Made by a program: the position numbers and the translations under genes. The notes beneath the pieces were generated by a model. That model was not told the origin of the DNA, ran no database searches, and saw only the letters and a list, made by a program, of their open reading frames with translations. Positions 1 to 9,042 of a stretch of 11,839 bases of DNA are shown here, piece after piece. Positions within the stretch are counted from its first letter, which is position 1, and each line of letters opens with the position of its first letter. Source of the stretch: Halomonas sp. (lineage in GTDB: Bacteria > Pseudomonadota > Gammaproteobacteria > Pseudomonadales > Halomonadaceae); assembly GCA_003560175.1 (NCBI GenBank), contig PWIZ01000047.1:1-11839 (forward strand), given 5' to 3'.

Positions 1-536
1 AGCAGCCGGGTGTCCAGGGTCTCCACGGTGAGATACTCCTCGAAGGTCCACAGGCGTACGAAGCGGTGGCGCTGCTGCTCGTCGCCGCCCCAGGCCGCAA
101 AGTCCAGAGGGGCCGAGGGCATGCCCTCGGCCAGCTGCCCCTGCCACCATTCGGCCATCTCATCCGCCCAGGGCTGGCCGTACTCATCCATGAGCTGCGC
201 CTTCACCGCGGCGTGGTCGGCCACCTCGGGGTGGAAGGCCACCACCAGAGCGAGCCGCTCGCTGCCCGCCGGGAAGACATAGCGCAGATCGGTTTCCACC
301 GCCGAATCCCCCCCCAGGCGGCCGTCGATCAGCAGATCACCAGCGGCGGTCTGCTCCTCGGTCACCTCGGCGACACCGTCCGCGACCAGACGCTCGCGAA
401 CCTCGTCGGGGGACATGCCGAGCTCGACGCTGCCGTAGCCGGTGATGGCCGGGGCAGCCAGTGCCGCCCCGGCGGCCAGCAGCAGGGCCGGCGCCAGGGC
501 GCCGATCCATCCGCGGAGTTGCTTCACTTGTGTCAT
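1..536 (-). CDS. Secreted protein of unknown function, 3' end missing at window edge
   Basis: This is the N-terminal 178 codons of a minus-strand gene that stays open to the left edge, so its stop lies outside the window. I read the frame codon by codon and found no stop. The start ATG at 536 has a strong ribosome binding site (GGAAGGAG, 6 bases upstream) and begins 14 bases after the stop of the multihaem cytochrome gene, so the two are very likely co-transcribed. The protein opens with a Sec-type signal peptide: basic start (MTQVKQLRGW), an Ala/Leu core, and a likely cleavage at ALA-AP near residue 27. The mature part starts with GYGSVELGMSPDEVRERL, is acidic and rich in Trp, Glu and Ala, and shows no CXXCH motif in the visible part. 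I do not recognise the family. Its place after nirS and the multihaem gene suggests a periplasmic accessory protein of nitrite respiration, which is inference only. Confidence 0.8.
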   Translation of the reverse strand, partial: MTQVKQLRGWIGALAPALLLAAGAALAAPAITGYGSVELGMSPDEVRERLVADGVAEVTEEQTAAGDLLIDGRLGGDSAVETDLRYVFPAGSERLALVVAFHPEVADHAAVKAQLMDEYGQPWADEMAEWWQGQLAEGMPSAPLDFAAWGGDEQQRHRFVRLWTFEEYLTVETLDTRL

Positions 537-550
537 GCCATCTCCTTCCG

Positions 551-2212
551 TCAGCGCTCGATACGCATGGCGTTGATCTCGACCATCTCGTCGTCTATTT
601 CTTCGGCGCCGAACATCAGGCCGAACTGCCAGGAGACGTGATGGAAGCGTGAGGCCGCATGGTCATCATGTAGCGCGAAGTTGACATTGTACTTCCCGTC
701 CAGGGTCAGCGGCTTGTCGCCGGGGGCCCCGGTGCGCAGGGCGCGAGTCATGTGGGCGGTCCAGACGCCGTCTTCCTTGCTGGCGCTGAACACCACCGCC
801 TCGCTGTCGCCAAAGTGCCGCTCCTCGAGGATGTAGCCGGACTCGGTGCGCTCGCTGCCGCTCTTGTAGCGGGCCATATCCAGGTAGACGCCGCCGCTGA
901 ACAGCTCCTCGATCTCTTCGTCCTCCTTGAGCTTGTCCCAGCCCCCGCGGGCGGCGCCGCGACGTCCGCGAACCTCGACCTCGGTGCGACTCTCGGTGAG
1001 GTACTTGGTCACGCCGCTCATGAGTGCCAGGCGCTCGGACAGTTCGCTCTCCTCCAAGGCCGCCTGCTCGGGGGCATCCGGCATGTAGGTGGAATCGTGG
1101 TGACAGCTGGCCCAGCAGCCACCGCGGTCGGCCATGTCGACGCGATCGTCGGCGAAGCTTACGGTGAGCTTGATCTCGTTCTCCGGGTCCATCATGCCGC
1201 CGTCCACGAAGGGCAGCGGACTATGCTCGGCGTCCTCCCACTGGAAGCGCATATAGAGGTAGTCGTCGTCGAAGGCGGCCTGAACGGCCATCGGCACGTG
1301 GCCGCGCTTGTCGCCCAGGTCGTAGGTCTCGATCTTCTCGGCGCTGGTGGCCAAGGCGCCGATATCGGCCTCCTCGTCCTGGTGACACCAGATGCAGCGG
1401 TCACCGAAGCTGAAGGCGCGACCGCCGCCGTGCTCGCTGCCGTCCTGGATCCACTCGATGGAGGCCTGGCCCGGCAGGAACAGTGTCACGTCCAGCGCCG
1501 GCACCTCGTCCCAGGCCAGGGTGGCGGCGATATCGCCCTCGGCGGCCACGGCATCGCCCAACTCCTCGGCCTCAAGCGGCAGTTCGGGGTCACCGCGGTC
1601 CAGGTCGGCCTCGGTGTCTTGCTCGAAGCGAGCGGCCCAAACGGGAGACTCATCCCAGGCCTCGGGAAGCTCGTGGGCGATGCCCTGGTGGCACTCGATG
1701 CAGGTCTGACCCTGCTCGAAGCCGCGGGCGTGCTCGCGGGCGGCGCGGGCCGGCTGCTGCTCCAGGTCCATGGCGGACCAGTCGTGGCAGTTGCGGCACT
1801 CGCGGGAATCGGTGCGCAGCATGGAGCGCCAGACATTCTCGGCCAGGTGCAGCCGCTTGCCCTCGAACTTCTCCTTGGTATTGATGGTCCCCAGCATCCA
1901 GTGCCACACCTCCCGGCTGGCCTCGATCTTGCGGATCATCTTGGGCCCCCAGGCGTCGGGCACGTGGCAGTCCGAGCAGGTCGCCCCCACGCCGGACTTG
2001 TTGTGGTAGTGAGGCCGGTCCTTGTACTCCTCATAGACCCAGCTCATCTCGTGGCAAGCCGAACTGCAGAACTTCATGTTGTTGGTGGCTTCCATCACCG
2101 TGTTGAAGCCACCCCAGAAGAGGATGCCGGCCACGAAGAAGACCGCCACGGCCCCCAGCGACGCCCCCATGATCGTGATCTTGCGCCAGTTGCGCAGGCG
2201 TTCCCTAAGCAT
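551..2212 (-). CDS. NapC/NirT-type multihaem cytochrome fused to an ethylbenzene-dehydrogenase-like haem-binding domain
   Basis: A 553-residue membrane-anchored c-type cytochrome. Residues 12-35 form the single N-terminal helix of NapC/NirT proteins, ending in the family's FWGGFNTVMEATN segment. Residues 40-180 are the NapC/NirT module with four haem sites: C49-C53-H54 (spacing CX3CH), C79-C82-H83, C139-C142-H143 and C171-C174-H175. NapC/NirT proteins take electrons from quinol and pass them to periplasmic reductases. After an acidic linker (about 195-235), residues 238-550 resemble the haem-binding domain of ethylbenzene dehydrogenase gamma subunits (segments such as AAFDDDYLYMRFQW and NVNFALHDDHAASRFHHVSW). 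This part adds C273-C276-H277 and C366-C370-H371 (again CX3CH), giving up to six c haems. Typical NirT/NapC proteins are about 200 residues and lack this extension. The ATG has GGGAG about 8 bases upstream. It follows nirS by 143 bases, so electron supply to NirS is a reasonable inference; the exact partner is unknown. Confidence 0.87.
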   Translation of the reverse strand: MLRERLRNWRKITIMGASLGAVAVFFVAGILFWGGFNTVMEATNNMKFCSSACHEMSWVYEEYKDRPHYHNKSGVGATCSDCHVPDAWGPKMIRKIEASREVWHWMLGTINTKEKFEGKRLHLAENVWRSMLRTDSRECRNCHDWSAMDLEQQPARAAREHARGFEQGQTCIECHQGIAHELPEAWDESPVWAARFEQDTEADLDRGDPELPLEAEELGDAVAAEGDIAATLAWDEVPALDVTLFLPGQASIEWIQDGSEHGGGRAFSFGDRCIWCHQDEEADIGALATSAEKIETYDLGDKRGHVPMAVQAAFDDDYLYMRFQWEDAEHSPLPFVDGGMMDPENEIKLTVSFADDRVDMADRGGCWASCHHDSTYMPDAPEQAALEESELSERLALMSGVTKYLTESRTEVEVRGRRGAARGGWDKLKEDEEIEELFSGGVYLDMARYKSGSERTESGYILEERHFGDSEAVVFSASKEDGVWTAHMTRALRTGAPGDKPLTLDGKYNVNFALHDDHAASRFHHVSWQFGLMFGAEEIDDEMVEINAMRIER

Positions 2213-2309
2213 GTCGGTCTCCCGAAACAGTCATGACAGTCGATATTCTGGTCTTGTAGTGGCATCCGGCCCCTTGCCCGGCCACTCGCCGCCTAACCGG
2301 CGGGAAGCG

Positions 2310-2347
2310 GCCGAGAAAGAGGCCGGAGCACCCGCAGGCGCTCCGGC
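2310..2347 (-). terminator. Hairpin after nirS, terminator or attenuator
   Basis: On the minus strand, 8 bases after the nirS stop, the arms GCCGGAGC and GCTCCGGC (2340-2347 and 2322-2329) pair perfectly. The spacer can add three more pairs around a TGCG loop. The T-rich tract that follows is short and broken (CCTCTTTCTC). This looks like a leaky intrinsic terminator or an RNA-stabilising 3' stem that would separate nirS from the downstream cytochrome gene. Confidence 0.6.
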
Positions 2348-2355
2348 GGGTTGGC

Positions 2356-3975
2356 TTAACCGCGCGTGTACTTTGCCTTGCGGTTGTAGACGTTGAACTT
2401 GCCGGTCGGCGTGTTCAGGTTCTCGACCCGGGCCTTCTCTTCCAGGGTCTTGTCGTCGTAGATAACCAGGGCGCCATCGTCCTGATGGCCGCGGCCGCGG
2501 GCCCAGATGGAGACCCACACCTCGGTACCGGTCTGGTCGTACTCCATGTGCACTGCCACGGCGTCATGCTCGGGGGGACGGTCGGCCACGTGGATCGGGG
2601 TCAGTTCGCGGGTCTCCTTGTTCATGACCATGACCCACTGGTTGGCGAAGGCCTCGGGGTGCATGGCCTGGTCGATCCAGACATTGTCGGAGTCCGGGTG
2701 GCTACGCACGAACAGCCCTGGGCCGTCGGTTTCCACGGTGTCGCAGATTTCCCAGGCCTGGTCCGGATAGTTCTCCGGGTCAGTACCCCAGAAGGTCATG
2801 AGGCCCTGGCCCAGGTGGGTAGTGCCGGCCACTGGCCCGCACTCGGGGTCGATCCAGTTGGCGCCCGGCCCCGGGTGCGGAATTTCCCCGGTATTGAGCA
2901 GGCCGACGAGCTTGCGCTCAACGGTATCGATGAACGCCATCTTGTTGCTGAAGTTGGCGGCGATCATGAAGTAGCGACCGGTAGACTCGAAGAAGCCGTC
3001 GTGCAGGTACTCGGCAGACTCGATGTGATCGATACGCAGGTTTTTCAGGTCACTGTAGTCGACCTGCCAGACCTGGCCGGTCTCCTTGACGTTGACAAGG
3101 AAGGAGGGCGCCAAGGGCGTATCGTAGAGCGCTGCGACCCTGGCCTCGTGGACGTAGTTGCCCTCGGTGTCATAGCCGCGGGTGGAGACAACCTTCAGCG
3201 GCTCCATGGTTTCGGCGTCGGCGATCACGAAGTGGGGCGGCCAGTAGCCACCGCCGATGACGTACTTGTCCTTCCACTCACCGTACTTGGAAACTGCGAC
3301 GTCGCGAGCGTCGATGCCGATAAACACCTCGGCGGTCACCTGGGGCGGATCCATCCACAGGTCGATCTTGGACAGGCGGCCGTCGCGGCCCTGGACATAC
3401 CAGAAGCGACCGTCGGAACTCGACTTGGCCACGTGCACCGCGTAGCCGGTTTCAGCCTCGGTGAACAGCTCCTTGGTGTCGCCGTCGATGATGCCCATGG
3501 CGCCACGATCACGCAGGATCGTGACCATGAAGTTTTCCCAGTTGCGGTCGTGCTGGGGCTCGGTAGGCCACTCTTCCTGGGGGACAAGAATCTTCCAGGT
3601 GTCGCGGATGTCGGTCAGGGACATCTCCGGCGGCTCTTCAGGTGTCTGCTGGATATACTTGGAGATGAGGGTGATCTCCTCTTCATCCAGGATGCCGTCG
3701 TGGTTGTTCATGCCGCCTTCGGTACCGAAGGTAATGATGCTCTCCAGACGACGCTGCCCCATGGCGATAGTGTCTTCTGGCAACAGTCCCGGGCCGGTGG
3801 CGCCTTTGCGCAGGGTGCCGTGGCAGCCAGCGCAGCGCTGGAAGTAGACCTCCCCGGCGCGATCCATCTCCTCGGCGGTCATCTCCGGCGCATCGGCCTG
3901 CACGCCACCCGCCAGCATGGCGGCCAGCGGGAAGCTGAAGGCAAAGATTCCCTTGCTCAGTGATCTCTTGTACAT
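2356..3975 (-). CDS. nirS: Cytochrome cd1 nitrite reductase (NO-forming)
   Basis: NirS reduces nitrite to nitric oxide in the periplasm, the defining step of denitrification. The 539-residue product has a Sec signal peptide (likely cleaved after VQA, residue 27). A cytochrome c domain follows at about 33-115, with the haem site C48-A-G-C51-H52 inside the family segment YFQRCAGCHGTLRKGATG and a candidate Met ligand in GGMNNHDG. The rest is the eight-bladed haem d1 propeller: TGYAVH (H181) matches the d1 iron ligand, EYLHDG (H325) and PHPGPGANW (H367) match the two catalytic histidines of the Pseudomonas enzyme, and the C-terminus has the conserved TPTGKFNVYN. I chose ATG 3975 because it gives the signal peptide and has a GAGG about 8 bases upstream; a longer open frame to 4293 runs through the promoter. 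The d1 propeller departs from the Pseudomonas sequence at many positions, but the active-site residues are intact. No d1-biosynthesis gene is visible. Confidence 0.96.
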   Translation of the reverse strand: MYKRSLSKGIFAFSFPLAAMLAGGVQADAPEMTAEEMDRAGEVYFQRCAGCHGTLRKGATGPGLLPEDTIAMGQRRLESIITFGTEGGMNNHDGILDEEEITLISKYIQQTPEEPPEMSLTDIRDTWKILVPQEEWPTEPQHDRNWENFMVTILRDRGAMGIIDGDTKELFTEAETGYAVHVAKSSSDGRFWYVQGRDGRLSKIDLWMDPPQVTAEVFIGIDARDVAVSKYGEWKDKYVIGGGYWPPHFVIADAETMEPLKVVSTRGYDTEGNYVHEARVAALYDTPLAPSFLVNVKETGQVWQVDYSDLKNLRIDHIESAEYLHDGFFESTGRYFMIAANFSNKMAFIDTVERKLVGLLNTGEIPHPGPGANWIDPECGPVAGTTHLGQGLMTFWGTDPENYPDQAWEICDTVETDGPGLFVRSHPDSDNVWIDQAMHPEAFANQWVMVMNKETRELTPIHVADRPPEHDAVAVHMEYDQTGTEVWVSIWARGRGHQDDGALVIYDDKTLEEKARVENLNTPTGKFNVYNRKAKYTRG

Positions 3976-4035
3976 AATGTGCCTCGCTTGATTTCCCCTT
4001 GGGGTGTGCCTGGCGGGTGCAGGGCTTGACCCTTC

Positions 4036-4056
4036 CAACCCCGTTCGATCATCACC
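4036..4056. repeat. Tandem 10-bp near-repeat in the nirS leader
   Basis: GATCATCACC (4037-4046) is followed at once by GATCGTCACC (4047-4056), differing at one base. The same stretch holds an inverted repeat, CGATC-N6-GATCG (4036-4051). It lies between the predicted nirS transcription start (about 4070) and the nirS ATG. It could be a regulator site or a leader stem, or it could be chance. Confidence 0.3.
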
Positions 4057-4104
4057 GATCGTCACCCTGCGCATAAGTAGTAGCAGCTTTACCTCTTTGC
4101 TCAC

Positions 4105-4118
4105 TTGACCGCTGTCAA
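4105..4118 (-). promoter_or_regulatory. FNR/DNR-type binding site of nirS (proximal)
   Basis: TTGAC-CGCT-GTCAA is a perfect inverted repeat with the architecture of FNR/DNR/ANR sites (TTGAT-N4-ATCAA). It is centred at 4111.5, about 136 bases upstream of the nirS ATG. If it sits at the usual class II position (-41.5), transcription would start near 4070. A weak -10 candidate (TACTAC, minus strand, 4077-4082) lies at the expected distance. The neighbouring regulator carries the matching E..SR recognition helix. Confidence 0.8.
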
Positions 4119-4134
4119 TTGGTGCACCGGAGTG

Positions 4135-4148
4135 TTGACCTAGGTCAT
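4135..4148 (-). promoter_or_regulatory. Second FNR/DNR-like palindrome upstream of nirS (distal)
   Basis: TTGAC-CTAG-GTCAT contains the perfect 12-bp palindrome TGACCTAGGTCA and matches the proximal site's half-sites at 9 of 10 positions. Its centre (4141.5) is exactly 30 bases from the proximal site, close to three helical turns, so two bound dimers would face the same side of the DNA. It lies between the dnr terminator and the proximal site. Confidence 0.6.
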
Positions 4149-4154
4149 GGGTTG

Positions 4155-4184
4155 AGTGGAGAAAGGCCCCAGGATCCCGGGGCC
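4155..4184 (-). terminator. Rho-independent-type terminator of dnr
   Basis: The arms GGCCCC (4165-4170) and GGGGCC (4179-4184) pair around a short GATC-containing loop. On the minus strand they are followed by TTTCTCC. The hairpin begins 3 bases after the dnr stop and lies before the nirS regulatory sites, so it would close the ccmFGHI-dnr transcript and insulate the nirS promoter. The U-tract is short, so read-through into nirS is possible. Confidence 0.65.
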
Positions 4185-4187
4185 GCT

Positions 4188-4958
4188 TCAATGGCCGTTG
4201 AGGCGTGGAACCGGCGGGGTACAGAGGTCGCGGCCGTTGAGGCCAGGGCAGGCGGGAAGGGAGCGTGACTCGCCGCCACGGGCGAAAGCGCATAGCGCCG
4301 GCAGATCATCCAGATGCACGCAGCTGCGCTCACAGCGCACGCCGAACGCCCGCAGGCGTGCCATGGCTCGGGAGAAGCTCTCCGGCTTCATGCCCAGGCG
4401 GCCGGCGATCAACATCTTGTCGCAGGGCAAACAGATCGTGGCGCGGGCGACGTCATCGGGGCATAGTGAAATCAGGAAGGCCGCCAGTCGCTGGTGAGTC
4501 GACTGATTAGTGAGCTGGTCGAGCTGCATCACCAGCGCCCGCAACATGCCGGTGAGATTGGCCAGCAGGTTGAGGGTCAGACCATGATGCTGGTGCAGGG
4601 TGTCCAGGAAGGGCTCCGCTGGAAAGACCAGCAGCCGGGCATCCTCGGCAACACCGCCGTTCACCGGAAAACCCTCGCGATCGAACATCGCCGCCTCGGC
4701 GAAGGACTCGCCGCAGCTGAAGAGTCCCACCATGCATTCACTGCCATCGGGGCTGTCGCGGTAGAGCTTCACCCAGCCATCCAGCACCACGTAGAAGCGA
4801 TCCGCGGGCTCACCCTGAGCGAACAATCGAGTACCTCGCGGGCAGTATCGCTCTTGGGCACCCCGAGCCAGCAGCGCCAGGGTATCGTCGGCGAGGCCCC
4901 TGAACAGTGGCACCTGTCGCAGCGTGTTCAGGGTCTCCTGGGTGAAGTGGACTGTCAT
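4188..4958 (-). CDS. dnr: Crp/Fnr-family transcription regulator, DNR-like
   Basis: A 256-residue regulator. Residues 15-130 form the cyclic-nucleotide-binding-like sensor domain (VPLFRGLADDTLALLARG, with GEPADRFYVVLDGWVKLYR and SFAEAAMF characteristic of the group). A dimerisation helix spans about 130-165, and a winged helix-turn-helix follows at about 172-220. The recognition helix carries E193-S-F-S-R197, the E..SR pattern that reads TTGA half-sites, and KPESFSRAMARL closely resembles the DNR helix (QPETFSRIMHRL in Pseudomonas, from memory). The N-terminal cysteine cluster that holds the 4Fe-4S centre in FNR is absent, which favours the NO/haem-sensing DNR class. Oddities are eleven cysteines and a tail of about 29 residues beyond the usual DNR end. 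AGGAGG 5 bases before the ATG makes the start firm. It begins 25 bases after ccmI and is probably in the ccm transcript. Likely targets are the sites before nirS and ccmF. Confidence 0.85.
   Translation of the reverse strand: MTVHFTQETLNTLRQVPLFRGLADDTLALLARGAQERYCPRGTRLFAQGEPADRFYVVLDGWVKLYRDSPDGSECMVGLFSCGESFAEAAMFDREGFPVNGGVAEDARLLVFPAEPFLDTLHQHHGLTLNLLANLTGMLRALVMQLDQLTNQSTHQRLAAFLISLCPDDVARATICLPCDKMLIAGRLGMKPESFSRAMARLRAFGVRCERSCVHLDDLPALCAFARGGESRSLPACPGLNGRDLCTPPVPRLNGH
4193..4243. repeat. 12-bp direct repeat in the 3' end of dnr
   Basis: GGCCGTTGAGGC occurs at 4193-4204 and again at 4232-4243. The copies are 39 bases apart, a whole number of codons, and both encode Leu-Asn-Gly in the protein's C-terminal tail. 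This suggests the tail arose partly by a small in-frame duplication. Confidence 0.5.
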
Positions 4959-4983
4959 CTCGGCCTCCTGGACTCGTTCTCGC

Positions 4984-5868
4984 CTAGCGCAGCGTCAGTT
5001 CCGTCAGGTTGCCTCGGATCACCTCGGCCTCGGGCGACTCCGCCGGCAATATTGTCAGCAGCCGTCCCCAGTAGGCGCGAGCCTCGTCGAAGGCTTCCTC
5101 CTGATAGGCCCGGGTGCCGGCCAGCCACAGCCCCTGGGCGTGCTCGGGGTCGATGGCCAGAGCCCGCTCGATCAGTGCCGCCGGCTCCCCCGAAAGGTCG
5201 CCCTCGATCTCGGCCAGCACATCGGCGTAGCGGACCAGCACCTCGGGGTCGCGGTCGCCGCCGTGACGCAGCGCCTCGCCGAAGGCGCGGCCCGCGGCCT
5301 CGAACTCGTCGAGGAAGGTCAGCGTGCGCCCCAACAGCACCCAGCCCTGGAGGTCGGCCGGATCCTGGGCCAGACGCACCTGAAGCCCCTCCACCAAGTG
5401 GGTGAATTCGCGGGTCATCTCCTCGTCGCTGGGCTCAGCCTGCGGGAGCGCTGACATTGCCTGGCCGGCAGGTGCACGGGCGGCGAACACCTCATCGCTG
5501 TAGCCCACCGAGAAGTAGGTACCGATGGCCAGGAAGGGCAGCAGTGCCATGCTGGCCACGGCGGCGACCCGGGGCAGACGACGGTCACTCCGGCCCTCTC
5601 CCGCCGCATCGGCACCGGCTTCCAGCACCTCACTGTCAAGCAGCTCGCGCTCCAGATCGGCCAGGGTGCGGGCGTGGCGTTCCGCAGTCAGGGTGCCGCT
5701 GGCCAGGTCCTGGTCCAGTTCGGCGACACGGTCACGGTGCACCGCCAGCACCCCCTCACGACGGCTCGGTCCGATGGCATCGCGGGGGTCGCGCAGCAGC
5801 GGAATCAACACGAAGGCCAGGGCCAGCAGGCACAGGCCCAGGGCCAGCAGCAGAAAGACGCCATTCAT
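4984..5868 (-). CDS. ccmI: Cytochrome c biogenesis protein CcmI (TPR apocytochrome chaperone)
   Basis: CcmI binds apocytochrome c in the periplasm and delivers it to the CcmF/CcmH haem-ligation complex. The 294-residue product has two membrane helices (about 3-24 and 100-121). Between them is a charged loop with the family-typical heptad-like segment around HRDRVAELDQDLASGTL. A periplasmic TPR domain follows from about 150 to 280 (helical repeats such as GWVLLGRTLTFLDEFEAAGRAFGEAL and ALAIDPEHAQGLWLAGTRAY). Many CcmI proteins are near 400 residues; this one is shorter, with a compact TPR region, but no break is seen. The ATG lies 18 bases after the ccmH stop with GGAGG about 9 bases upstream. 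Its place after ccmH and before dnr fits a ccmFGHI-dnr transcript. Confidence 0.9.
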   Translation of the reverse strand: MNGVFLLLALGLCLLALAFVLIPLLRDPRDAIGPSRREGVLAVHRDRVAELDQDLASGTLTAERHARTLADLERELLDSEVLEAGADAAGEGRSDRRLPRVAAVASMALLPFLAIGTYFSVGYSDEVFAARAPAGQAMSALPQAEPSDEEMTREFTHLVEGLQVRLAQDPADLQGWVLLGRTLTFLDEFEAAGRAFGEALRHGGDRDPEVLVRYADVLAEIEGDLSGEPAALIERALAIDPEHAQGLWLAGTRAYQEEAFDEARAYWGRLLTILPAESPEAEVIRGNLTELTLR

Positions 5869-5886
5869 CTCGTCGTACCTCCGGGG

Positions 5887-6363
5887 TCAGTCACCACGGC
5901 GCAGGCGCTCCAGCGCCGCACGCTCCTGATCGGTGAAATGGGGCTCGTCATCGGGCCGGGAGCGCCGGCGCATCACCTGCCACCAGACCAGCAGACCGCC
6001 AACGAACAGCAGGAAGGGACTGGCCCACAGCAGGGCGGTATTGGCCTGCAGCGGTGGCCGATAGCGCACGTAGTCGCCGTAGCGGGCCACCATGAAGTCG
6101 ACGATGGCATCGGCGGACATGCCGTCCCGGGTCATCCGGTAGACCCGCCGGCGCATGTCGGAGGCCAGCTCCGCGTTGGACTCGTGGATCGTCTCGCTCT
6201 GGCACACGGTGCAGCGCAGCTCCCGGGTCAGGGTCTCGTACTGCTGACGCTGGGCCTCGCTATCGAATTCCAGTGGCTCGCCGAGAGCCAGCGCCAGGGC
6301 AAACCCGGCTGGCAGCAGCGCCAATACCAGCATGGCGAGGACGAGGTGCACCCAGCGGCTCAT
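5887..6363 (-). CDS. ccmH: Cytochrome c biogenesis thiol-oxidoreductase CcmH
   Basis: CcmH works with CcmG and CcmF to keep the CXXCH cysteines of apocytochrome c reduced and present them for haem attachment. The 158-residue product has an N-terminal hydrophobic signal or anchor (about 5-27). The signature LRC51-TV-C54-Q is in a short periplasmic helical bundle (to about 102), followed by a membrane helix (about 107-130) and a charged cytoplasmic tail. The RYGDYVRYRPP segment just before the helix is typical of the family. The length matches the single-domain CcmH type, with CcmI encoded separately rather than fused as in E. coli. The start codon overlaps the ccmG stop (ATGA), showing translational coupling. 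Confidence 0.95.
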   Translation of the reverse strand: MSRWVHLVLAMLVLALLPAGFALALALGEPLEFDSEAQRQQYETLTRELRCTVCQSETIHESNAELASDMRRRVYRMTRDGMSADAIVDFMVARYGDYVRYRPPLQANTALLWASPFLLFVGGLLVWWQVMRRRSRPDDEPHFTDQERAALERLRRGD

Positions 6364-6935
6364 GACGTCCTCCTCGCCTGCTTGGCTTTCGTTTTCTCTG
6401 CTCTCAGCTGTTCCGCTCTCAATTTCTCCACCAGGGGCAGCACCTCGTCGAGGAGCAGCTGCCGGCTGAGGGGGCCGATGCGCTTGTAGCGGATCACGCC
6501 TTCGGCATCGAGCACATAGGTCTCGGGAGTGGCGTAGACGCCCCAGTCGATGCCGGCATCCCCCGCGGGGTCATAGGCGATGGTGCGATAGGGGCTCTCG
6601 GTCATCTCCAGGTAGCGTAGCGCCGCATCGCGCTCGTCCCGGTAGTTGAAGGCGTGGATGGGGATGCCGCCGCGGGCCAGCTCCATCAGCAGCGGCTTTT
6701 CGGCGCGGCAGGTGCTGCACCAGGTGGCCCAGACGTTTACCAGCGCCACCTCGCCGATAAAGTCCTGCTCGGTCAGGAGCACCTCGGGATCTTCCAGGGC
6801 CTCCAGTGTGAAGGCCGGCGCCGGCTGGCCCACCAGCGGCGAGGGCAGGTCGCGGGAGTTGAGCCCCAGGCCCAGCAGCAGCAGGCCGAGCAGGGCCATC
6901 ACCGCCACCAGCGGAATCAACAGTTTGAGCTTCAT
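6360..6935 (-). CDS. ccmG: Thiol:disulfide interchange protein CcmG/DsbE
   Basis: CcmG is a membrane-anchored periplasmic thioredoxin-like protein that supplies reductant for cytochrome c haem ligation. The 191-residue product has an N-terminal membrane helix (about 4-25), the PSPLVGQPAPAFTL entry segment of the family, the active site W72-C73-S-T-C76 and the cis-proline in YATPETY (P137). The active-site dipeptide is ST rather than the more common VP or GP type seen in many CcmG proteins. The C-terminus carries an Ala/Glu/Lys/Arg-rich helix (LRAEQLRAEKTKAKQ) that looks like a small extension. Start and stop overlap ccmF and ccmH by 4 bases each, so the three are coupled. Confidence 0.94.
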   Translation of the reverse strand: MKLKLLIPLVAVMALLGLLLLGLGLNSRDLPSPLVGQPAPAFTLEALEDPEVLLTEQDFIGEVALVNVWATWCSTCRAEKPLLMELARGGIPIHAFNYRDERDAALRYLEMTESPYRTIAYDPAGDAGIDWGVYATPETYVLDAEGVIRYKRIGPLSRQLLLDEVLPLVEKLRAEQLRAEKTKAKQARRTS

Positions 6936-8923
6936 GAGGCAGTCACCTCGCGGCTAGGATCCGCCGCGGGCACCGTGTCGCTTTCACGGCGCCGAACCAG
7001 CCGGTAGCGCTTGTCAGAGGCTGCCAGCAGGCCCCCCAGGCCGAGCAGGATGGCCCCGCCCCACATCCAGGCCATGTAGGGCTTGTAGTAGAGGCGGAAG
7101 CTCCAGGCGTCCCCCACCAGCCGCTCACCCAACGACACATAGACGTCCCGGGTCGCGGCGCGATGCAGCGAGGCCTGATGCATGGGGTTCTGGGGCTGGG
7201 TGTCGTAGTAGCGCCGCTGGGGCAGCAGGGTGGCCACCGGACGGCCGTCACGGGTCACCTCGACCACCGCCTGGTCGGCGTCGTAATTGAGGCCGCGCAC
7301 CGTTTCCATACGTCGCAGGGTGAAGTCGAAACCCGCCGCCGAGGTGGTCTCGCCCGGCTCCATGCGCACATCGCGCTCCACCTCGTAGGTGTTGACCATG
7401 GCGATGGCGATGACCACCATCGCCAGGCCGATATGGGCCAGGTGCATCCCCAGGAAACCCGGGCGCAGCACCCGGCGCAGCCGAGTGGCCAGGGGCTGGC
7501 GGCCGGCCAGGCGTTTGCGGATGTCGAGTGCTGCGGTAAGGATGATCCAGGTGGCCAGCATCAGCGACAGCGCGGTCAACGGGCGCCAGGCGCCCATGGT
7601 CAGCGGCCAGAGGCCACCGGCCACCACGCTGACCAGCAGCACCCAGCGCAGCTGGCGCACCACCTCGGCGGGGCTGGACTGCTTCCACATTACCGTAGGG
7701 CCGAGGCCCATCAGCAGCAGCAGTGGCAGCATCAGTGGGGCGAACACGGCATCGAAGTAGGGGGGGCCCACCGAGATCTTGCCCAGCCCGAAGGCGTCGA
7801 GCACCAGCGGGTAGAGGGTGCCGATGAAGACCGCGGCGAAGGCCACGGTGAGCAGCACGTTGTTGGCCAACAGCAGGGATTCCCGGGAGAGCCAGTGAAA
7901 GCCGCCACCCAGCCCCACCCGGGGCGCCCGCCAGGCGTAGAGCGTCAGTGAACCGAGCAGGGTCACCGCCAGCATGGCCAGCAGGAAGACGCCCCGGTCC
8001 GGGTCGGTGGCGAAGGCGTGCACCGAGGTGATCACCCCGGAGCGCACGATGAAGGCAGCCAGCACGACCAGCGCAAAGGTGATGATCGCCAGCATCAAGG
8101 TCCACACCTTGAAGCCACCGCGCTTCTCGGTCACCGCCAGGGAGTGAAGCAGCGCCGTGGCGGTGAGCCAGGGCAGGAAGGAGGCGTTCTCCACCGGATC
8201 CCAGAACCACCAGCCGCCCCAGCCCAGCTCGTAGTAGGCCCACCAGGAGCCCATGGCGATGCCCAGGGTCAGGAACACCCAGGCCACCGTGGTCCAGGGC
8301 CGCGACCAGCGCGCCCAGGCGGTATCGAGTCGCCCCCCCATCAGTGCCGCCATGGCCAGGGCGAAGACCACCGCGGTGCCCACGTAGCCCATGTAGAGCA
8401 GCGGCGGATGCAGGATCATCCCCGGGTCCTGGAGCAGCGGGTTCATGCCGCGGCCATCCAGGGGACCGGGCACGATGCGGTCGAAGGGGTTGGAGGTGAA
8501 CACCGTGAAGGCGATGAAGGCCACCGAGATCATGCCCATCACCGCCAGCACCCGGGCCAGCATCTCACGGGGCAGCGAGCGACTGAAGCGCGCGCCCGCC
8601 ACGCCCCAGGCGCCGAGGATCAGCACCCAGAGCAGCAGCGACCCCTCGTGGCCGCCCCACACCGCGGTGACCTTGTACATCAGCGGCTGGCTCAGGGCCG
8701 AGTGGCTGGCTACGTAGCGCACGCTGAAATCACTGGTCAGGAAGGCCCAGGTGAGCACCCCGTAGGCGATGGCCAGGAAGACGAACTGGCCGCTGGCCAG
8801 GAAGCGCCCCGTGCGCATCAGCTGCAGGCTGCCGGTCCGAGCCCCCACCAGGGGCAGCACGCTCTGGATGAGCGCCAGGCAGAGCGCCAGGATCAGCGCA
8901 AAGTTACCGAGTTCTGCCACCAT
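6932..8923 (-). CDS. ccmF: Haem lyase subunit CcmF
   Basis: CcmF is the large membrane component of system I cytochrome c maturation; it receives haem from holo-CcmE and ligates it to apocytochrome with CcmH. The 663-residue product has the usual length and many hydrophobic segments. The tryptophan-rich WWD domain is WGGWWFWDPVEN at about 235-246. Conserved histidine positions are visible in WGGHEGS (H92), LHPPLLYMGYVG (H172), LLHSLAV (H260) and VHAFATDPDRG (H302), as expected for its haem sites. I chose ATG 8923 because MVAELGNFALILALCLAL is the family's usual start and has AGGAGG 10 bases upstream; an in-frame ATG at 9004 would add 27 unlike residues. It is the first gene of the block. The ccmABCDE genes normally found upstream are replaced here by a divergent ppiA, so those functions must lie elsewhere. 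Confidence 0.96.
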   Translation of the reverse strand: MVAELGNFALILALCLALIQSVLPLVGARTGSLQLMRTGRFLASGQFVFLAIAYGVLTWAFLTSDFSVRYVASHSALSQPLMYKVTAVWGGHEGSLLLWVLILGAWGVAGARFSRSLPREMLARVLAVMGMISVAFIAFTVFTSNPFDRIVPGPLDGRGMNPLLQDPGMILHPPLLYMGYVGTAVVFALAMAALMGGRLDTAWARWSRPWTTVAWVFLTLGIAMGSWWAYYELGWGGWWFWDPVENASFLPWLTATALLHSLAVTEKRGGFKVWTLMLAIITFALVVLAAFIVRSGVITSVHAFATDPDRGVFLLAMLAVTLLGSLTLYAWRAPRVGLGGGFHWLSRESLLLANNVLLTVAFAAVFIGTLYPLVLDAFGLGKISVGPPYFDAVFAPLMLPLLLLMGLGPTVMWKQSSPAEVVRQLRWVLLVSVVAGGLWPLTMGAWRPLTALSLMLATWIILTAALDIRKRLAGRQPLATRLRRVLRPGFLGMHLAHIGLAMVVIAIAMVNTYEVERDVRMEPGETTSAAGFDFTLRRMETVRGLNYDADQAVVEVTRDGRPVATLLPQRRYYDTQPQNPMHQASLHRAATRDVYVSLGERLVGDAWSFRLYYKPYMAWMWGGAILLGLGGLLAASDKRYRLVRRRESDTVPAADPSREVTAS

Positions 8924-8950
8924 CTGCTGCACCCTCCTGCCGCGGGTGAC

Positions 8951-8970
8951 GCCCGGCCGGGCGGCCGGGC
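8951..8970 (-). other. GC-only hairpin in the ccmF leader
   Basis: GCCCGGCC and GGCCGGGC pair perfectly over 8 bases around a 4-base loop. The stem sits 27 bases upstream of the ccmF ATG and just before its Shine-Dalgarno. There is no T-run on either strand, so it is not an ordinary terminator. It could affect translation or RNA stability of the ccm transcript, or be a by-product of high GC. Confidence 0.4.
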
Positions 8971-9042
8971 CTGGATTGAACAAGCCGGCGGTTGGCGCCG
9001 ACACCCATGCAGGGATGGTCGGGGAATACCCTCATAAGATCC

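Follow-up and report, generated by a model that had tools for sequence, protein, structure and literature searches.

The window analysed here is a whole contig of 11,839 bases from a 72%-complete Halomonas genome. Its minus strand carries, in this order, ahpF, ccmF, ccmG, ccmH, ccmI, a gene for a Crp/Fnr-family regulator (4188..4958; PF00027, PF13545), nirS, the fusion gene described below and a 178-aa ORF (3..536) that is cut by the contig end, while a peptidyl-prolyl isomerase gene and a DUF6164 gene lie on the plus strand. nirS, encoding the cytochrome cd1 nitrite reductase, occupies positions 2356..3975 (PF02239, Cytochrom_D1, 2.1e-115); the nirS queries spanned 2356-3978, the ATG at 3975 being one codon further in.

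Upstream of nirS lies an FNR/DNR-type palindrome, TTGACAGCGGTCAA (4105..4118, minus strand). Such a box in the window alone is not above chance, but 28 of 36 loci have one in the stretch searched, and a Crp/Fnr regulator precedes nirS in the Halomonas loci. A sigma-70 promoter scan of positions 1-5200 returned no site, and no Rfam match in the window rose above the gathering score. The 99-base tRNA-Arg called by ARAGORN (4781-4879) lies inside the Crp/Fnr gene, is probably false and was discarded. The 178-aa ORF of the window matched no Pfam or NCBIfam family and its copy in locus L002 likewise had no Pfam match; a conserved ORF of about 180-215 aa stands close behind the fusion, or behind the cupredoxin gene that may follow it, in 23 of 24 Halomonas/Billgrantia named-genome loci, the 24th (L018) having no DNA there.

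The fusion gene (551..2212, minus strand) encodes 553 residues with six c-haem motifs. Its NapC/NirT domain (PF03264; residues 19-184; 1661..2158; 1.2e-66, 224.2 bits against a cut-off of 24.1) bears four of them, i.e. CSSACH49 (2051..2068), CSDCH79, CRNCH139 and CIECH171. It is followed by a linker that is acidic by residue composition (residues 185-232; 1517..1660), with 16 D/E against 2 K/R and a pI of 4.05 over residues 185-235, and by a domain of the EB_dh fold (PF09459; residues 233-527; 632..1516; 3e-26, 93.3 bits against 33.3), which we read as NirB (cytochrome c-552-like) and which bears the motifs CIWCH273 (1382-1396) and CWASCH366 (1100-1117). Pfam, with both domains over their cut-offs, and the motifs agree with an earlier note on this DNA, which had described an anchored tetrahaem NapC/NirT module joined through an acidic linker to an EB_dh-like domain with two more c-haem motifs. 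The motifs at positions 49 and 366 have the form CX3CH instead of CX2CH, and each of these two may or may not carry haem.

The N-terminal membrane helix was placed at residues 19-43 by a structure model, which is weak over the NirT half (ten-residue pLDDT means of 47-75). The fusion did not reach the NCBIfam cut-off of TIGR02161 (237.5 against 310.6 bits), and its single sequence gave no match to solved structures up to E 1; the structure matches reported below were obtained with profiles. The Cys and His residues of motifs 3-6 are kept in all 65 aligned fusion proteins and those of motifs 1 and 2 in 64, the remaining row having a gap there. As the best 21 homologues are full-length (542-561 aa, 97-100% query cover, 70-92% identity) and come from several sources, the fusion is not an assembly artefact. 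Its nearest named relatives are Halomonas and Billgrantia proteins, and the source annotation of one of these begins with "Denitrification system component".

Based on neighbourhood, motifs and an identity of 33-38%, with the split form seen in one genome (G362), the most fitting reading of the C-terminal half is NirB, a dihaem cytochrome whose gene comes after nirT in operons of the Stutzerimonas type, and that of the whole gene is a joining of two neighbouring genes of a known operon, nirT and nirB. In G362 (locus L152) nirS is followed by nirT (202 aa), nirB (292 aa) and ORFs that are c551-like, nirC-like and nirF-like, the last three being named by sequence reading without a profile. The split NirT exceeds the TIGR02161 cut-off (317.2 against 310.6 bits), while the NirB, taken as 292 aa, matches PF09459 at 1.3e-35 and aligns along the C-terminal half of the window's fusion with both haem motifs in register. 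We thus found the NirB pattern, i.e. PF09459 with a CxxCH and a CWxxCH motif, encoded right after nirT behind nirS when split. The split nirT and nirB of Stutzerimonas/Pseudomonas stutzeri (nirSTBM) represent the same two modules in the same order behind nirS, likewise with four plus two haem motifs and CWxxCH as the second NirB motif (seen in L152), whereas the window has a single polypeptide with an acidic linker and no adjacent nirM or nirC. Moreover, the NirS of L152 sits in another NirS clade than the fusion-linked NirS.

The likeness of the second half to ethylbenzene dehydrogenase (EBDH), proposed in the earlier note, holds for the fold, since profiles matched the EBDH gamma subunit (2ivf_C) and Kuenenia NxrC (7b04_C), which share the EB_dh fold, but not for the identity, which neighbourhood, motifs and sequence assign to NirB. 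It seems highly improbable that the EB_dh half functions as a separate redox enzyme subunit, comparable to the haem-b gamma subunit of DMSO-reductase-type molybdoenzymes, and lies in the vicinity of nirS for historical reasons only. Unlike EBDH gamma and NxrC, the domain holds two c-haem motifs and has no molybdoenzyme partner in the window, none being found by Pfam and NCBIfam among its scanned proteins, and the protein pairs with one NirS clade (see below). The cut-off of TIGR03477, the NCBIfam model of the haem-b gamma subunit, was not reached (18.9 against 169.85 bits). The residue aligned to EBDH Lys150, the haem-b ligand, is not conserved, in a weak alignment (E 0.22) that was read by eye.

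In a NirB tree of 92 rows (quick method; three of the rows are long), standalone NirB proteins of the Stutzerimonas type group in one clade (support 100), whose position among the fusions is weakly supported (84). Three proteins listed as standalone NirB, from Marinobacter (P0174), Alkalimarinus (P0170) and Roseibium (P0211), start inside linker-like sequence, and fused forms are present in genomes of the same order; these three may be fission products or annotation pieces.

Linkage of the fusion to one NirS clade

In 31 of 32 named-genome loci the fusion is the next gene downstream of nirS and shares its strand (L026 starts at the fusion). The same position was found in 19 of 19 family-survey loci, in 20 of 21 class-survey loci (L094 starts at the fusion; nirS of L097 is present as an end piece only) and in all five order loci (L169, L195-L198). 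The surveys are samples of genomes whose sets overlap in part; the named-genome and class sets, in which L094 and L026 look like one locus, are not independent. Four plasmids matched most of the query, and both of those opened (Ruegeria sp. THAF33 and Aliiroseovarius sp. M344) have the fusion directly behind nirS; the other two are Ruegeria plasmids. The co-occurrence expected in the earlier note is therefore borne out, as the fusion adjoins nirS in all loci opened whose contig extends far enough and is not found mostly elsewhere.

Within the family, the fusion is present in 19 of 201 genomes, which are exactly the 19 bearing the NirS type of the window (identity of at least 80%; 18 full copies and one piece, in G147). 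It was found in none of the 25 genomes with only the second nirS type (44-47% identity), while G151 and G155 carry both types. In a NirS tree of 72 rows (quick method, midpoint root as drawn, long-branch warning), a branch with support 100 parts 53 rows on the fusion-linked side from 19 others. On the former side the fusion was seen for 49 rows, with one row cut, one unknown and two labelled "none", i.e. L049, where the fusion is adjacent (it equals L081), and L140_2, the first of two tandem nirS genes; on the latter side, 18 rows are without the fusion and one has a split nirT. The fusion is co-inherited with one NirS clade, and its single-chain form offers a clean object for study: one gene, one protein. 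In L140 (genome G419) the two tandem nirS genes, at zero distance from each other in the tree, stand ahead of one fusion gene.

Between nirS and the fusion lies a terminator-like hairpin of 11 bp with a T-rich tail (2322..2347, minus strand). A scan of positions 1-5200 gave 4 terminator-like sites where 2.0 were expected, so that the window taken by itself is little proof of it. However, a stem of 9-16 pairs with a T-rich tail occurs in 45 of 54 distinct gaps behind nirS, against 0.6 expected from dinucleotide shuffles (40 per gap). All but one of these gaps (53) precede a fusion, and the remaining one, before the split nirT of L152, has no hairpin by the same criteria. The stem sequence varies among lineages while the hairpin is retained, and we infer partial termination after nirS, which would leave NirS in excess of its donor.

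Proposed electron delivery to NirS

What the sequences show directly is the domains and motifs, the order of the genes, the shared inheritance with a single NirS clade, the hairpin and the cupredoxin neighbour. Delivery of electrons from quinol to NirS by the fusion appears plausible. We suggest that the NirT-NirB fusion is probably a membrane-anchored hexahaem cytochrome c serving this transfer. The NirT half would draw electrons from quinol at the membrane, the linker would tether the dihaem NirB half, a cytochrome c-552 of the EB_dh fold, on the periplasmic side, and the NirB half would hand electrons to NirS either directly or, in most relatives, via the adjoining cupredoxin; all six motifs would be occupied by haem. 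The fusion may also reductively activate NirS, and the hairpin would hold the level of the donor below that of the enzyme. The proposed role resembles that of NrfH and the NapC/CymA quinol dehydrogenases, in which an anchored tetrahaem NapC fold passes quinol electrons to a periplasmic partner, and the fusion profile matches NrfH (2j7a) at 7.1e-6. In contrast to these proteins, the partner cytochrome is here fused, and the first motif is CX3CH in Halomonas.

A NirT-like protein, ImoA, oxidises quinol in vivo, according to the accessible part of PMC9600427. In the portion of PMC13086519 available to us, nirT and nirB are said to accompany clade-1b nirS in Stutzerimonas, nitrite reduction in S. 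perfectomarina (strain ZoBell) is said to require NirT, and what NirT and NirB contribute when nitrate halts NirS activity is treated as an open question. In the mutant-fitness table of P. stutzeri RCH2, as excerpted from PMC5554334, the values of Psest_0817, labelled "Ethylbenzene dehydrogenase", resemble those of NirS (Psest_0815); Psest_0817 would correspond to nirB. The fusion itself is not new, as fused NirTB is already in print for Halomonas sp. 2A (PMC13086519, citing Li et al. 2018, in the same portion) and is presumably of the same protein family, in the same genus; that portion devotes one sentence to it and gives no data on neighbourhood, motifs or maturation. No other title or abstract opening listed by our searches of the open-access literature describes the fusion, and in these searches we did not find descriptions of the nirS-fusion hairpin, the cupredoxin neighbour, the eight-motif NirT-NirB-NirB form, the second ccmFGHI set upstream of nirS with CX3CH in Halomonas, or the clade-wide pairing of the fusion with one NirS lineage.

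Of the 31 named-genome loci with downstream DNA (L018 has none), 26 have a small cupredoxin gene behind the fusion; it is absent in L002, L003, L014, L020 and L021. It was also found in 17 of 20 class loci (L104 was too short to count), though not after L209, L210 and L211, the last with only 508 bases, in all six of L164, L165 and L195-L198, and directly behind the fusion in 16 of the 19 fusion-bearing family genomes. The C..H..M copper motif is kept in 64 of 64 cupredoxin matches, and three of three cupredoxins tried reached the PF00127 cut-off. The window lineage has no cupredoxin beside the fusion. In the window, L002, L003 and L021, the fusion is immediately followed by the ORF that elsewhere stands behind the cupredoxin. 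We read this as a loss of the cupredoxin, which argues against soluble copper carriers having been bypassed ancestrally.

The earlier note had gone further and suggested that this one polypeptide could carry electrons from quinol to NirS, bypassing bc1 and soluble c551/azurin; in its full form, this would make the fusion the sole donor. The note's remark that neither nirM nor nirC lies nearby applies to the whole contig, and it is in keeping with this view that no more than 3 of 19 fusion genomes yielded a c551/NirM-like protein and that the window, L002, L003, L014, L020 and L021 lack a cupredoxin beside the fusion. Nevertheless, such a bypass seems unlikely and is not supported by the survey, because a NirC-like cytochrome and cytochrome c1 of bc1 were each detected in 19 of 19 fusion genomes (44 of 44 genomes in all), and because of the cupredoxin next door in the 16 family genomes and 26 named-genome loci mentioned above. 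In the window genome, the NirC-like match lies on another contig (C312), which also bears d1-type matches. As NirM-like proteins, searched with G362 as the positive control, are scarce also in nirS genomes without the fusion (7 of 25), their absence is not special to the fusion, and the idea that the fusion replaces NirM was dropped. Marinobacter hydrocarbonoclasticus, which according to the accessible part of PMC6152468 has no nirM and encodes its donor c552 far away, indicates that a missing nirM near nirS is no proof of bypass.

Less probable than quinol-to-NirS delivery is the alternative that the fusion acts as a reductive activator of as-made NirS, with turnover electrons coming from bc1 via the cupredoxin or a c-type cytochrome. 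The omnipresence of cytochrome c1 in the 19 fusion genomes and the cupredoxin adjoining the fusion in 16 of them are consistent with such a role, as are the hairpin, suggesting less donor than enzyme, and the activation of cd1 by NapC, as told in the available portion of PMC13086519. On the other hand, the window lineage keeps the fusion without a neighbouring cupredoxin, and c551-like proteins are scarce in the fusion genomes (3 of 19).

The nirS-linked ccmFGHI set and the CX3CH motif

The ccmF-G-H-I cluster of the window (4984..9004, minus strand; Pfam/NCBIfam), composed of ccmF (6932-9004), ccmG (6360-6935), ccmH (5887-6363) and ccmI (4984-5868), is a second haem-lyase set in fusion-bearing Halomonas. 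Two CcmF are encoded in all 18 near-complete fusion-bearing Halomonas genomes; in 17 of these one copy (78-83% identity) shares a contig with nirS and lies some 5 kb upstream of it, and in G147, whose nirS is a contig-edge piece, that copy is on another contig. The other CcmF of these genomes shows 51-53% identity, and in the incomplete genome of the window the linked CcmF alone was seen. Of the 25 nirS genomes that lack the fusion, 24 encode a single CcmF, and the remaining one, G193, encodes two (52-53% each). Each of eight fusion genomes from outside the genus encodes one full CcmF (G325 with a weak extra piece); by their coordinates none of these copies lies near nirS, and the fusion loci searched outside Halomonas showed no CcmF. 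A CcmF tree without the unlinked copies of the fusion genomes unites the linked CcmF in one clade, whose sister is the single CcmF of G508.

The named Halomonas/Billgrantia fusions that were examined have CX3CH as their first NirT motif, and the other sequences have CX2CH (80 and 234 sequences, duplicates included, 10 unread); CX2CH is found also in the close relatives P0015, P0016 and P0019-P0021 (70-72% identity). Where the upstream DNA suffices, all 22 CX3CH loci have a linked ccmF, and none of the eight CX2CH loci does. As both traits are confined to one clade, this amounts to a single event, and the tie between them is suggestive only.

E. coli NrfEFG is a dedicated haem lyase. In Shewanella, as far as the available text of PMC6976685 goes, SirE is required for SirA, which bears an odd haem motif; the accessible part of PMC6295460 describes CX3CH next to a membrane helix in two CymA homologues and ImcH. 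SirE/SirG (PMC6976685, same excerpt) and NrfEFG resemble the present case in that a second CcmF-type lyase occurs beside an odd-motif cytochrome; here, it is CcmFGHI beside a CX3CH motif, for which it is a candidate requirement. We tentatively propose, while considering it rather doubtful, that the nirS-linked ccmFGHI set might be a dedicated haem lyase for CX3CH at the first NirT haem, a system-I counterpart of NrfEFG/SirE. Our searches of the open-access literature listed no title on a lyase for CX3CH.

The linked ccmF frame is whole in 21 of 22 named-genome loci. In L012 (3054-5231; the same as G163), from Halomonas faecis, it is split by one in-frame stop, which could be either genuine or a sequencing fault. 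Because the linked ccmF is broken there while the fusion keeps CX3CH, which speaks against a strict need for the lyase, the odds of a dedicated lyase are slightly lowered; furthermore, the NirB of G362 bears CWASCH, also CX3CH, yet this genome has one CcmF. If the proposal were true, ccmFGHI, the regulator, nirS, the hairpin, nirT-nirB and the cupredoxin would constitute one inherited nitrite-respiration module with its own haem-attaching machine. Together with CX3CH, the linked second haem lyase provides a testable case of haem-lyase specialisation.

Tandem NirB forms and NapC-EB_dh pairs away from nirS

Among the 337 matches listed, 101 have a NirT domain with one CWxxCH motif, 96 a NirT domain with two, one a NirT domain without a motif of the CWxxCH pattern, and 139 no NirT domain. 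The proteins with NirT and two CWxxCH motifs are 887-963 aa long among the matches listed, and each of the nine inspected holds eight haem motifs (NirT-NirB-NirB form); by Pfam, P0027 and P0047 have two EB_dh stretches each and P0120 has three. The named sources of this tandem form include Sedimenticola, Thiodiazotropha, Magnetovirga and a Gigantopelta symbiont, and all five tandem loci opened (L104, L106, L107, L112 and L114) adjoin nirS. In the NirB tree, both NirB copies within a tandem protein often pair with each other, a pattern that points to either repeated duplication or homogenisation, for which the tree would look alike.

Other arrangements occur apart from nirS. Loci L200, L201 and L204 (L202 and L203 partly) contain a four-motif NapC-type gene, then a ten-motif EB_dh-type cytochrome, a ten-motif MtrA-like protein and a large motif-free protein resembling an MtrB-type porin, without nirS, and an additional ten- or eleven-motif protein is present in L200 and L201. 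By their look, L200, L201 and L204 may encode an Mtr-like extracellular electron conduit with a NapC + EB_dh pairing. L153 (7185-8741), from genome G379, in which no nirS match was found, has a split nirT (191 aa) and nirB (319 aa), then a CxxCH-containing ORF without a Pfam match and a two-component system. The occurrence of NapC + EB_dh away from nirS in L153, L200, L201 and L204 means that the pairing as a kind is not NirS-specific. In L194 (7733-11840), the gene for a NirB-like protein (483-aa frame) has in its vicinity an ORF resembling a molybdopterin oxidoreductase and one for a small cytochrome c, the latter two resembling, by their look, a sulfite dehydrogenase pair.
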